NCBI GenBank assembly: GCA_903847285.1
Contig: CAINDH010000274.1
Span: forward strand, 1 to 32,944
Direction: 5' to 3'
DNA from: an uncultured Verrucomicrobia subdivision 3 bacterium
Lineage (GTDB): Bacteria; Verrucomicrobiota; Verrucomicrobiae; Limisphaerales; UBA11358
Length of the DNA: 32,944 bases
The notes beneath the pieces were generated by a model. The model was not told the origin of the DNA. It saw only the letters and a list, made by a program, of their open reading frames with translations, and ran no database searches. Positions within the stretch are counted from its first letter, which is position 1, and each line of letters begins with the position of its first letter. Shown here one piece after another: positions 4,370 to 30,714 of this stretch. The position numbers and the translations under genes are program-made.

Positions 4370-5611
4370 TCAGGCCATAAAACGCAGGTAAATCACCTTC
4401 AAATACTCCGCTTCCTTGAAGCCGGCTGGATGATCCGGCGGATGCTGCAAGGTTTTCAGCTCGGAATATTTCCGCCCCGACTTCAATGCCGCGCGCCGCA
4501 CGGCTTCAAAAAATTCTGCCGCCGAAACGTGTGCCGAACAGGAACCTGCGACCAGAATCCCCCCCGGGGAAAGCCGTTCGATGCCAAGCGCGTTCAGTTT
4601 TTCGTAGGCGCGGATGGCACCCTCCCGTTCCGTCGCGCGCTTGGCCAGCGACGGCGGGTCGAGCACAATGAGGTCGAATTTTTCTTTCGCGGAAGGCAGC
4701 CATTCAAACGTGTCCGCCTGCACCGTTTCGTGGCGGCAAGCGGCCACGGAGGGAAAGTTTTGGTTCAGCGCAACATTTCTTTTGGCTGATTCCAAAGCGT
4801 GCGCGCTGATATCCAGATCGGTCACGGATTTCGCGCCGCCGCGCGCGGCATAGACCGAGAAGCCGCCGGAAAAACTGAAGGCATTCAAAACTGTTTTCCC
4901 GCGCGCCAGCGTTTCGACTTCCGCACGGTTATCACGTTGGTCGAGGAAGAATCCGGTCTTCTGTCCGCGCACCACATCCGCTTCAAAGCGAATCCCATTC
5001 TCCTGAAAAACAACCGAAGCACCGAGCGCTGTCTCTGCGTGTTTTGAGAAAACAATGGCCCCGTCCCGCCGAGGTGGTGTTCGACGCTCCGCTGCCGTCT
5101 GAATGTTACGGCTCAAACGGAGGATGATTCTTTCGCACGGAATTTCTTTGGTGAGTAGCGCGAGAATTTCCTCCAGCCTCGGCAGCCACGCGGCGGTGTA
5201 AATCTTCAGCACGAGCGTCGTGTCATAACGATCCAGCACTAGCCCCGGCCAGCCGTCGCTCTCGCCGTTAATGAGGCGATAGCCGGTGGTCGTGGCATCA
5301 AAAATCCCGCTGCGCCGAGCAAGCGCCTGTGCGAGCCTCGCCTGCCACCACGCTGCGTCAATCGTCGTGGGCTTGCCCGCGTGTAAGATGCGCACGCGGA
5401 TTGGCGACTCCGGATCAAACAAGCCTACCGCGAGAAACTTGTCCTTGCGGTCGTAGATGACCGCCAGTTCGCCAGCCTCACCAGCGCGGTTCGCTTCGTT
5501 AATGCTATCGGCGAACAGCCATGGATGACCACCGCGCACGATGGTTTCGGCAGCGGTGGTGATTCGCAGACGAAGACGCGCCGCTGTTTGATTGGCGGCA
5601 GGAAGGCTCAT
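4370..5611 (-). CDS. RlmI/RlmK-like SAM-dependent rRNA methyltransferase (copy 2)
   Basis: A second COG1092 family methyltransferase, 413 residues, similar in architecture to the gene at 1160-2374 but clearly diverged. The N-terminal PUA-like domain contains '[14 protein letters not shown]' and '[14 protein letters not shown]'. The middle has '[14 protein letters not shown]'. '[14 protein letters not shown]' leads into the SAM-binding motif '[16 protein letters not shown]' near residue 240, and the catalytic '[11 protein letters not shown]' is near residue 313. 'AGSCSAHVS' and a C-terminal '[16 protein letters not shown]' complete the family pattern; the equivalent C-terminus in copy 1 reads 'SPDHPIIPMIPETEYLK'. 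The start overlaps the trpS stop by four bases (ATGA), indicating translational coupling. The rRNA target is unknown; the two copies probably modify different positions. Confidence 0.9.
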
Positions 5612-12037: not shown

Positions 12038-12146
12038 TTACTTCTTTGCCCCAAGCAACGCAGGCAAATCACATTTCACCAAATCACCAATGCGTTCCAG
12101 CGTGATGTCCGCCGGAAGATAGGTGGCGTGGCCTTGGGTTTGGACG
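12038..12146 (-). pseudogene. Decayed copy of the 3' end of the HAD hydrolase gene at 13580-14254
   Basis: Read on the reverse strand, this stretch gives 'ATYLPADITLERIGDLVK' followed by 'CDLPALLGAKK' and a stop (TAA, complement of 12038-12040). The real HAD gene ends 'ATYPPADITLERIGDLVK', 'CDLAALLGKK', stop. Over about 75 bp the two DNA copies differ at about eight positions, several of them synonymous. Further upstream the match continues with a one-base deletion ('CCAAGGCCACGCC' against 'CCAAAGCCATCGCC') and then fades. It is a 5'-truncated gene fragment, not a gene. With the intact gene it brackets the 21-bp array and FN3 gene. Confidence 0.85.
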
Positions 12147-12202: not shown

Positions 12203-12682
12203 GTAGTCTCAAAAAGGGTTGTTTTGATCAGTTCTTTAAGAATTCCAGCTCATCCCGCAAGAAAAGCCATCAATTCCATTACAACTCGTGGCGCTATATT
12301 TGTTTTAGCGCCATGGAAGATAGTTTTGGCAATCAGGATTGTCGTTCCGCCAATCGGTTCTTAAGCAGTTCATGGAGCTATTTTTATTTTAGCGCCATGA
12401 ACTGTTTTAGGAGCAATCGCTTTTGTCAGGATGCCGATCGCATCTCATCGGGTGCGTGGAGCTGATTCAGATTTAGCGCCACGAGCAGTCTTGACGGCAA
12501 TCGACAACGTGGGTATGCATGGGGCTGAAATCATTTTAGCGCCACGATTTTTGGCGGTGTGCATCAGGTTTTTCACGGGAGCGATGGCTTTTCTTCCGTG
12601 GTTGATGGCTTCCGCCGGGTTTGCGATGGAAACCTGAACGATTGAAATCGTTTTTCCGGGCGCGGCAACTGGAGATTGGTTT
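12203..12682 (+). repeat. Degenerate 21-bp tandem array, about 23 units, with embedded hairpins
   Basis: The stretch divides cleanly into consecutive 21-bp units that end exactly at the ATG of the FN3 gene. Examples are GCAATCGCTTTTGTCAGGATG (12413), GCGATGGCTTTTCTTCCGTGG (12581) and TTGATGGCTTCCGCCGGGTTT (12602). A longer-period pattern is superimposed: units beginning CRTGGNGCT and ending TTTTA at 12287, 12371, 12455 and 12518 (spacing 84, 84 and 63 bp, all multiples of 21) are each followed by GCGCCAYG. Each pair forms a hairpin with 9-base arms and an 11-base loop, for example CGTGGCGCT...AGCGCCATG. The period is a multiple of three, so both strands read as heptapeptide-like repeats, but stops interrupt every frame (TAA 12362, TGA 12398 and TGA 12635 in the frame of the FN3 gene). 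It is probably not translated. Confidence 0.8.
12671..12674 (+). promoter_or_regulatory. Ribosome binding site of the FN3 protein gene
   Basis: GGAG lies 8 bases before the ATG at 12683, inside the last unit of the 21-bp array. It supports this start and implies that the array is the 5' leader of the gene if transcription begins upstream. Confidence 0.5.
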
Positions 12683-13306
12683 ATGGCAAGTTTCAAACTC
12701 ACCTTCCGCAACAAGTCGGCGCTGGAACAGCTCACGCTTTGCGAGCAAACCATCGCCGGCATCGTGGCCAAGCCGGAACATCAATATGAACCGACATATT
12801 TGACGGAGGCACAGGTGGCCACGGCGGAGGCGCGCACCAGTCTGGAGCGGGCGGAAAGTCTGCGCGGGGAATTGCGGATGGAGATCACGCGGCGAAATCA
12901 ATTGCTGGCTGAGGCCCGCAAAAGAGTTCTCCGCGCCTCGCTGGGTGTGGTGGTGAAAACGAGCGGCGATGTTCACAAGATGATGGAGGCGGGGCTGGCG
13001 TTGCCGGCATCCAAGCAGGTGAAGGTCGGCAAACCGGACGCGCCGACGAATCTGCGGGCGAAGCCGACGGACAAGGAAGGCGAGGTGAAACTGATGTTCG
13101 TGCGTCCAGTGCGGCGTTGTATATTCACCATCGAATGTCGGCGCGATGATGAACCGGTTGGCTGGAAGCATCTGGATTCCTGTGGCTGTCAGATTTGGTT
13201 GGTGGAAGGTTTGCAGTCGGGCGTGAAATACTGGTTCCGCGTGAGCGCAACGAACTCGCACGGCACCAGTCCGTGGAGCAATCTCGCCGTGGCGCGGGTG
13301 AAGTGA
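12683..13306 (+). CDS. Fibronectin type III domain protein with N-terminal helical domain
   Basis: A 207-residue protein without a signal peptide. Residues 1 to about 115 are mostly helical and charged ('ALEQLTLCEQTIAGIVA', 'EAQVATAEARTSLERAESL', 'RRNQLLAEARKRVLRAS'), probably a helical bundle or short coiled coil. After 'VGKPDAPTNLRAKPT', residues about 120-207 form a single FN3 domain, with 'IECRRDDEPVGWKHL', 'LVEGLQSGVKYWFRVSATN' and 'GTSPWSNLAVARVK'. Proteins of this layout, an N-terminal helical part followed by one FN3 domain, recur in Verrucomicrobia, Planctomycetes and Bacteroidetes with no assigned function. The ATG follows the 21-bp array without a gap and has a GGAG 8 bases upstream. 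It sits between two copies of the HAD gene tail, which suggests that it belongs to an acquired or duplicated module. Confidence 0.8.
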   Translation: MASFKLTFRNKSALEQLTLCEQTIAGIVAKPEHQYEPTYLTEAQVATAEARTSLERAESLRGELRMEITRRNQLLAEARKRVLRASLGVVVKTSGDVHKMMEAGLALPASKQVKVGKPDAPTNLRAKPTDKEGEVKLMFVRPVRRCIFTIECRRDDEPVGWKHLDSCGCQIWLVEGLQSGVKYWFRVSATNSHGTSPWSNLAVARVK

Positions 13307-13370: not shown

Positions 13371-13497
13371 CTGCCGCGCTGCGGCGGGACATTGACTGCG
13401 CAGCAGTCACTTTATGGGGTGGCTGTTTTTTTGATTCGCGAATGATTCCGTCGCCTGACGCTACGCTCGGCGACGGGTTTTTCGCAGCGCGAAAAAC
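13371..13497. repeat. Cluster of short-loop hairpins (REP-like) downstream of the FN3 gene
   Basis: Four perfect inverted repeats follow one another: GCCGC-GCT-GCGGC (about 13374-13386), GACTGC-GCA-GCAGTC (about 13394-13408), CCGTCGCC...GGCGACGG (13448-13476, loop 13) and GTTTTTCGC-AGC-GCGAAAAAC (13477-13497). Three of the four have three-base loops. The cluster lies between the convergent ends of the FN3 and HAD genes and could terminate transcription from both sides; it also resembles repetitive extragenic palindromes. Confidence 0.65.
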
Positions 13498-13579: not shown

Positions 13580-14254
13580 TTATTTCTTCCCCAGCAACGC
13601 CGCCAAATCACACTTCACCAAATCCCCGATGCGTTCCAGCGTGATGTCTGCCGGCGGATAGGTGGCGATGGCTTTGGGATCCAGCGCGTAATGGCCCTGG
13701 CGCGGGAAGACGGTGGTCAGGCGGTCGCCCCAGATTTTTTTCATCGCGGTCAGGATGCGCAGCTTGTCATCCATCATCACATAATGTTCCGCCGGGAAAC
13801 GCTGCTCCACGTCGTCGAGTTCATGTTCCTTGTGGACGTAGATGAGCGCGTTGCCATCCACGGCCTCGAGCAGGCCGGAGCGTTCCACCTTGCGCGGCTG
13901 GAAGACGACGTCGCCGTCCGAGAGGATGACGGCGGGGCCCCATTGCTTGACGTGTTCGATGGCGTCGAGCGAGTTCGGATAAAGCCGGTTGGCGAAAGGA
14001 TAGTTCACCAGAAAATTGGAGACGGTCAGCAGCTTCGGGTCGCGCGGATGTTCGATGCGGTAGCGTTGCAAAGCGCCGAGGTAATCGGCGTAACCAAGTT
14101 CGCTGCGCAACTGTTCGAAGATTGTCCAGTAATGCTGGGCGCGTTCGGGGCCGACTTCGCGCTGAAGGTAACGCTTGAGATCGGCGGTGACGCGGTCGTT
14201 GTCGAGGAGCGTGTTGTCCACGTCGAAGAGGAAGATGATTTTGTGCGCAGCCAT
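13580..14254 (-). CDS. HAD-superfamily hydrolase
   Basis: A 224-residue haloacid dehalogenase-fold hydrolase, cytoplasmic, probably a phosphatase of unknown substrate. HAD motif I is 'IIFLFDVDNTLLDND', with the nucleophile Asp and the second Asp both present. A helical cap follows ('RYLQREVGPERAQHYW', 'ELGYADYLGALQRY'). Motif II is 'AVILSDGDVVFQPRKV' and the motif IV acidic region is 'HYVMMDDKLRIL'. The reading frame stays open upstream to 14866, but that part is antisense to the M3 peptidase; the ATG at 14252-14254 fits the HAD start. It is divergent from the peptidase gene, with 150 bp between starts. The last 100 bp are duplicated as a decayed fragment at 12038-12146. Confidence 0.85.
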   Translation of the reverse strand: MAAHKIIFLFDVDNTLLDNDRVTADLKRYLQREVGPERAQHYWTIFEQLRSELGYADYLGALQRYRIEHPRDPKLLTVSNFLVNYPFANRLYPNSLDAIEHVKQWGPAVILSDGDVVFQPRKVERSGLLEAVDGNALIYVHKEHELDDVEQRFPAEHYVMMDDKLRILTAMKKIWGDRLTTVFPRQGHYALDPKAIATYPPADITLERIGDLVKCDLAALLGKK

Positions 14255-30567: not shown

Positions 30568-30714
30568 GCCTCCGGGCTCGACCCGAACCCCTCCGGATTA
30601 AATCCGGAGACCTCCAGACTCAATCCGAACGTCTCCGGACACAATCCGGAGGTGTTTCGGTTCAACCGAAAGGGGTTGCGACCAAAGCAAAAGCCGTTGC
30701 GGTCGTTCCGAAAT
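30568..30714. repeat. Second 21-bp tandem array, about seven units
   Basis: Units of exactly 21 bp start at 30568, 30589, 30610, 30631, 30652, 30673 and 30694. The first five share a TCCG..........TCCG core, for example CCCTCCGGATTAAATCCGGAG (unit 2, without its first base it contains the palindrome TCCGGATTAAATCCGGA) and GTCTCCGGACACAATCCGGA. Later units drift to TTCGGTTCAACCGAA and GTTGCG words. One frame reads as heptapeptides (PSGLNPE, TSRLNPN, VSGHNPE), but it runs antisense into the next gene and has no plausible start. The sequence differs from the array at 12.2 kb while the period is the same. Confidence 0.78.

Follow-up and report, generated by a model that had tools for sequence, protein, structure and literature searches.

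Small FN3-domain genes of Verrucomicrobia-related genomes are preceded, at dozens of loci, by arrays of palindromic DNA units that follow each other at a step of 21 bp. Regulatory DNA is normally recognised via conserved sequence; here, the period and the mirror symmetry persist and the sequence is replaced, both between relatives and among the paralogues of one genome. Related arrays appear to differ by whole units, and selection on base pairing is not detectable in them. The arrangement is described here starting from the window, by which we mean the whole 32,944-nucleotide stretch of DNA that was analysed (contig CAINDH010000274.1 of an uncultured Verrucomicrobia subdivision 3 bacterium).

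The array and the gene in the window

Between positions 12203 and 12682 of the window, the sequence matches itself best at a lag of 84 (0.419; no lag in any of 200 dinucleotide shuffles exceeded 0.354), with a weaker signal at a lag of 21 (match 0.320 vs 0.255 in shuffles, with a standard deviation of 0.021 and a highest value of 0.325 among 1000 shuffles). These two lags bear out the 21-bp periodicity that had been claimed in a preliminary description of this DNA, and the four longer units, said to be spaced by 84, 84, and 63 bp, were located at 12286, 12370, 12454, and 12517. The stop codons at 12362, 12398, and 12635, reported as lying in frame with the ATG at 12683, were likewise found on reading the sequence. 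The array was also held to extend over all 480 bp and to divide without remainder into 21-bp units. This had to be corrected, as 480 bp correspond to 22.86 units, a recognisable array does not begin until about 12284, and the final ~100 bp are degenerate. The features of the locus are as follows.

12284-12556, no strand: 21-bp array core, recognised by its periodicity, the long-dyad repeat family, and homologous arrays in the loci L001 and L002
12286-12315, no strand: long dyad 1, TGGCGCTA-N9-TAGCGCCA, from the repeat family, homologous loci, and arm comparison
12370-12399, no strand: long dyad 2, close to TGGCGCTA-N9-TAGCGCCA, from the repeat family, homologous loci, and arm comparison
12454-12483, no strand: long dyad 3, close to TGGCGCTA-N9-TAGCGCCA, on the same grounds
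12517-12546, no strand: long dyad 4, close to TGGCGCTA-N9-TAGCGCCA, on the same grounds
12557-12661, no strand: degenerate end of the array next to the gene, whose units have GCGATGG/TTGATGG-like cores in register; the 21-bp rows are weak by themselves
12671-12674, plus strand: GGAG, a candidate ribosome-binding site located 8 nt upstream of the ATG, read from the sequence
12683-13306, plus strand: gene of a 207-aa protein with helices followed by one FN3 domain, from protein searches, Pfam, and AlphaFold2

The core comprises 13 units, namely the four double units that form the long dyads and five single units in between. Tandem Repeats Finder (TRF) did not report the window's array, and the unit-extent rule applied to the family rejected it as too short, so that the evidence for it consists of the periodicity statistics and the homologous loci; it is degenerate and does not belong to the 62 well-defined arrays described below. 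The distance from the first long dyad to the ATG is 382 bp in the window, 445 bp in L001, and 402 bp in L002, which corresponds to 4, 4, and 3 modulo 21. This phase is not general, as L063 and L066 differ in it. Elsewhere in the window, two tandem 42-bp units at 30569-30651 (TRF score 103) give rise to an unrelated period-21/42 signal.

The protein encoded behind the array matches Pfam fn3 at residues 119-200 (E 1.4e-5). AlphaFold2 predicts helices at residues 13-29, 37-93, and 97-102 and then an FN3 fold with a mean pLDDT of 91; the pTM of 0.47 makes the placement of the helices relative to the FN3 fold uncertain. When the full protein was submitted to Foldseek and VIA-align, the matches listed were all FN3 domains, with VIA-align covering residues 115-207, and NCBIfam gave no match for four family members. 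In a protein search with the window's gene, 19 of the 24 matches were exactly 207 aa long. A distant member retrieved 364 matches, and many of the 120 listed have 237 aa because they carry a 30-residue YD-rich leader. Such a leader of 30 aa, with YD about every seven residues and placed ahead of the 207-aa core, is present in L063, L061, L075, and many database homologues; the window's gene is without it.

Among the matches listed, the named taxa of the homologues are Verrucomicrobiota, apart from one Bryobacteraceae and one Akkermansiaceae entry. A scan of genome contigs delivered five loci, four of which are titled Verrucomicrobia subdivision 3 and one Limisphaerales. The family is patchy and was found in 3 of 145 phylum-sample and 29 of 245 order-sample genomes (E 1e-12). 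A phage or plasmid origin of the gene was considered and rejected: tblastn with the L063 protein gave no match in the two collections searched for such an origin, and no relative of the window-type alignment was found in viral contigs. The wider family alignment yielded eight partial matches there; five of these, which had sufficient DNA upstream, are ORFs of 369-1518 aa that lack the 21-bp periodicity (h21 ≤1.42). Three members queried against PHROGs showed weak matches of the FN3 region to phage tail proteins (best E 8e-9).

Occurrence and anatomy of the arrays across the gene family

The survey covered 101 family genes, that is, the window's gene and those in 100 chosen regions (L049-L148) of Verrucomicrobia-related genomes. 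Forty regions hold matches with a frame of about 200-300 aa, apart from one gene that is truncated by the end of its contig, another 20 came from further genome searches, and 40 were picked from 84 order-sample matches, preferring ones with upstream sequence; L095 has no usable start. The preliminary description had named, in advance, homologous genes without upstream 21-bp periodicity as one observation that would speak against the element. When the homologues were tested, periodicity above the 99% level of 791 control windows was present in 82 of the 99 scoreable family genes, the score of a gene being the best of three overlapping 500-bp windows and that of a control being a single window. 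With a single upstream window per gene, the best period was 21 for 75 of the 100 genes scored and 42 for 6, compared with a best period of 21 in 56 of 649 control windows from the same loci. Other FN3-domain genes behaved differently. Fifteen regions around FN3-domain ORFs were taken as controls, one of which is a family member (h21 about 5) and two of which are too short upstream; the 12 that remain (404-1109 aa) all stay below the threshold (maximum h21 1.48 vs 2.01). The array is real and part of something larger.

An upstream 21-bp array was not detectable in 17 of the 99 scored genes. One of these, L069, has a clear 20-bp array at about -620 to -380 of the gene, with a 60-bp superperiod. 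The second gene of the L119 tandem pair scores negative, its upstream DNA being the first gene.

An array was called well defined when it had at least nine units and passed a size and score rule, for which 62 genes qualify. The remaining 39 of the 101 genes, including the window's, were omitted from the palindromy, compensation, similarity, codon, folding, and AT/promoter analyses. The 62 arrays contain 9-29 units (median 15), start a median of 513 bp before the ATG, and end a median of 180 bp before it, so that the exact end at the start codon, which had been presented as special in the window, is not a feature of the element. The unit consensus of 49 of the 62 arrays shows more palindromic symmetry than column-shuffled controls do. 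Examples of palindromic units are GtTTTCGanGCGTCGAAAgnG in L066, cttTTCCTTGCAAGGAaagCt in L124, and CTTGGGAAGTCGTTTCCCAGT in L061. The arrays have an AT content of about 0.47 and the DNA directly downstream one of 0.54, a change of composition that is compatible with a promoter there. Promoter-consensus scores past the array lie barely over those of shuffles (8.09 vs 7.68, n = 58), and no promoter-consensus match was found in the window. A reading of the arrays as phased bends was discarded, as the A/T signal at 10-11 bp is absent, and even slightly negative, in the 62 arrays.

Arrays of this type also occur ahead of genes without FN3: two full-length collagen-like genes (208 and 223 aa) from two other genomes are preceded by 21-bp palindromic arrays (h21 4.6 and 3.0).

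L172:1501-2124: collagen-like gene with an upstream array
L176:1501-2169: collagen-like gene with an upstream array

Four partial collagen-like relatives from the same search showed no array (h21 0.6-1.7). At their ends, the collagen-like proteins are similar to small proteins that carry the motif SAELRxQFxxLK in the N-terminal and NELIxALRR in the C-terminal part. Genes for such small proteins lie behind the FN3 gene, within 900 bp and on the same strand, in 22 of the 95 cases with enough downstream DNA; loci with the small gene directly downstream include L064, L065, L109, L110, and L116. None was found behind the window's gene, and the six stand-alone small genes that were scored have no upstream array (h21 0.28-1.87). 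FN3, collagen-like, and small partner proteins are tied in this manner into one possible system.

Unit sequence, base pairing, and coding

The length of the unit is conserved, and its sequence is mostly private to the locus. Grouped by the identity of their genes, pairs of arrays have a mean unit similarity of 0.64 above 75% (8 pairs), 0.57 at 65-75% (11 pairs), 0.40 at 55-65% (22 pairs), 0.37 at 45-55% (52 pairs), and 0.30-0.32 below 45%, with a column-shuffled level of 0.28. Single pairs can lie far from these means. L063 and L064 have genes that are 85% identical and dissimilar arrays (0.40), L063 and L066 have genes that are 67% identical and similar arrays (0.84), and L061 and L083, with genes that are 30% identical, have a unit in common (0.77), as do a few other distant pairs. 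Sequence-specific binding of the FN3 protein to its own array is disfavoured by the dissimilar arrays of L063 and L064 and by the unit shared between L061 and L083. The shuffled 99% level is exceeded by 6.3% of between-genome pairs, so some unit sequences recur. Among pairs of at most 45% identity, similarity is 0.305 within a genome (46 pairs) vs 0.306 between genomes (1752 pairs). Since the sequence is private within one genome as well, one sequence-specific regulator cannot serve all arrays, and a regulator common to all arrays of a genome was rejected because paralogue arrays are no more alike than arrays of different genomes.

Among orthologues, the layout can persist: two boundary dyads are present in each of L054, L055, and L057, with blocks of units in between. 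Relatives also appear to differ by whole units, as a gap of exactly 21 bp occurs in the alignments of 9 of 9 orthologue pairs, next to gaps of other lengths and with the reservation that the alignment of periodic DNA favours such gaps. Private sequences, fast turnover, and whole-unit differences are what would be expected of a satellite with little or no function, in which a nuclease, replication pausing, or palindrome slippage amplifies 21-bp steps and the sequence drifts freely. In the order-sample genomes, contigs end less than 800 bp upstream of family genes more often than downstream of them (14/39 vs 6/42, one-sided p 0.022), as repeats break assemblies, which also agrees with a satellite. 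On its own, however, a satellite does not explain why distant relatives have one and the same unit length, why the units are dyads, or why, in the regions examined, the arrays are confined to this gene family, and the boundary dyads and block layout kept between L054, L055, and L057 speak against it. We assign it a minor, though appreciable, probability.

The whole-unit differences, the range of 9-29 units, and the contig breaks upstream, all observed with one genome per species, could also reflect a contingency locus, in which cells would differ in unit number and expression would thereby be switched or tuned, with 21-bp steps preserving the helical phase. The arrays, however, have diverged, the units of many loci are too different for easy slippage, and the palindromy is left unexplained, which makes such a locus very unlikely in our estimate.

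Palindromic units (49 of 62 arrays) would also suit a structured RNA leader, a noncoding RNA, or extruded DNA hairpins, with base pairing under selection. Folded as RNA, window positions 12263-12662 are more stable than all 100 shuffles (z -7.5), as any palindromic array would tend to be, and the 62 arrays reach a median z of -4.2 against column-shuffled arrays. Furthermore, G-T mismatches are slightly more frequent than A-C mismatches (801 vs 692), T is in slight excess over A on the gene strand (p 0.012), and an early summed covariation score over 26 arrays was positive (p 0.002). Counting double changes directly gave another picture. In cells where both partners deviate from the consensus, pairing is compensatory in 0.397 of cases within units (238/600 cells) vs 0.395 between units (2736/6926), the control taking the two arms from different units of one array, and in the second dyad the partners still pair in 0.368 of cases vs 0.402 in the control. 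Such an absence of excess compensation within units is expected for protein dyads rather than for base pairing. The long dyads of the window and of two homologous loci amount to 12 copies. One pair of the arms is broken in 5 of them, two pairs have changed on both sides (a number reached by 55 of 500 shuffles), and covariation is no higher than in shuffles (88 of 500 are as high). The preliminary description had set compensatory arm changes as a check on its hairpins; they are enriched neither within units nor in the long hairpins. Its statement that all copies keep both arms stands as regards the retention of the arms, while their variation is mostly uncompensated. Selection on the hairpin was thus rejected in spite of the early score, and we infer that this score reflects degenerate units losing both arms together.

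Moreover, folding shows no strand preference, as the plus strand folds better in just 32 of the 62 arrays, which gives a strand-specific RNA no support, and Rfam gave no match within the window. For the structured 5' leader proposed earlier, the slight G-T excess speaks in its favour; strand-specific folding found no support, and compensatory changes are not enriched. We consider selected base pairing in RNA or extruded DNA distinctly unlikely.

The unit length is a multiple of three, and a decayed or alternative N-terminal coding repeat of seven codons per unit had also been proposed. Open frames are twice as frequent as expected by column shuffle (91 vs 45.8, of 372), which we read as the probable result of dinucleotide bias, and the YD-rich 30-aa leader of many homologues, together with a few database entries that appear to translate array DNA, speaks for such a repeat. 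A codon period in the variability of the units, however, reaches p < 0.05 in only 1 of the 62 arrays, 21 of the 62 have no open frame, the gene's frame is not preferred (11 of 81 open frames), and a 20-bp array exists in L069. The coding repeat is barely credible after these tests. Uncompensated changes and the lack of a codon period and of a strand preference together leave both the hairpin-RNA and the decayed-coding readings weak.

Possible function, known systems, and gene neighbourhood

Among the four readings offered earlier (a structured 5' leader, a phase-variable promoter spacer, a protein-binding array, and a decayed coding repeat), the protein-binding array fits best, the binding itself being something that we infer. 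The palindromic sites stand in a row, one per 21 bp, and would all face the same way because 21 bp correspond to two helical turns. The row lies just upstream of an AT-richer, possibly promoter-bearing stretch ahead of the small FN3 gene, behind which some loci have a second small gene. A DNA-binding protein that dimerises or polymerises may sit cooperatively on the array and set the expression of the gene, and the gain or loss of whole units would alter the strength of this effect and leave the helical phase undisturbed. That the array is a cis-acting DNA element of cooperatively bound dyad sites setting the expression of the FN3 gene is put forward tentatively, with a likelihood that we place somewhat below an even chance.

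What stands most in the way of protein binding is the private sequence. It points to a protein that responds to spacing or shape or to a partner matched to each locus, unless nothing reads the array, as in a satellite. To account for the arrays, one has to assume such a protein, such a locus-matched partner, or a process that makes repeats in 21-bp steps, each of which would be unusual. As no neighbouring gene is common to all loci, a protein sensing spacing or shape may be the simplest guess for what reads such differing arrays. A bolder proposal, which we consider unlikely, is a class of DNA elements that inherits unit length and dyad symmetry rather than sequence, with the private array serving as the address of its gene, read by a spacing-measuring or locus-matched protein and renewed by copying in two-turn steps.

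Several known systems share parts of this design. The iterons of plasmid origins and the multi-site ends of transposons are phased arrays of protein sites of about 20-22 bp, in which the cognate Rep protein or transposase reads one sequence. The arrays described here are phased as well and have a similar unit size, but no Rep protein or transposase was seen as a common neighbour. Contingency VNTRs are tandem repeats upstream of surface-protein genes that change by whole units; to our knowledge, their units are not palindromic and do not keep a constant length across a gene family while the sequence changes. Tandem repeats ahead of a gene are common to both, as whole-unit differences appear to be; a unit length fixed across the family, a variable sequence, and palindromic units set the present arrays apart.

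According to PMC6640053, the ARG boxes in the ArgR operators of E. coli are 18-bp semi-palindromes that lie 3 bp apart, so that the family arrays resemble them in having palindromic sites at a 21-bp step (18 bp + 3 bp). This step was found for the family, the array of the window itself being degenerate. Unlike those operators, which have two boxes and one consensus each, the arrays have a median of 15 units and a sequence that differs by locus (PMC6640053). A shared site consensus for one regulator, as in the ArgR type, was not found, the units being private also within a genome. The TAACTGA intergenic direct repeats of Beggiatoaceae form arrays of short repeats that are mostly located upstream of start codons, as described in the abstract of PMC4679880, and are similar in being intergenic and ahead of start codons. 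They differ in consisting of one 7-bp non-palindromic sequence, for which that abstract reports no common class of downstream genes (PMC4679880). Among the titles and abstracts listed in searches of open-licence PMC full text, none describes an element like the present one.

Neighbouring genes of at least 100 aa are mostly not common to different loci. In the window, a HAD hydrolase gene lies at 13580-14254 on the minus strand, and its 3' end (13580-13678) is duplicated at 12038-12138 (85% over 102 bp), so that the FN3 gene and its array lie between the HAD gene and the duplicate. A HAD gene with 93% DNA identity to window positions 13580-14254 is found at L050:58-477, where the FN3 gene (71% identical) and its array lie on the opposite side of the HAD gene compared with the window. 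These two arrangements, the partial HAD duplicate, the mostly differing larger neighbours, and the patchy distribution of the family (3/145 and 29/245 genomes) could be accounted for by a small gene cassette for which the arrays provide recombination or mobility sites. A shared boundary motif was, however, not found in a crude 13-mer scan, and no recombinase was seen as a common neighbour. We regard a cassette as highly improbable. Nor did the 13-mer scan, crude as it was, lend support to ends of a mobile element, as it gave dispersed repeats only. One dispersed repeat of 33-34 bp is 97% identical in three genomes (window 13444-13477; L144:2651-2684 and 5019-5051; L071:5068-5100) and is probably a REP-like element.
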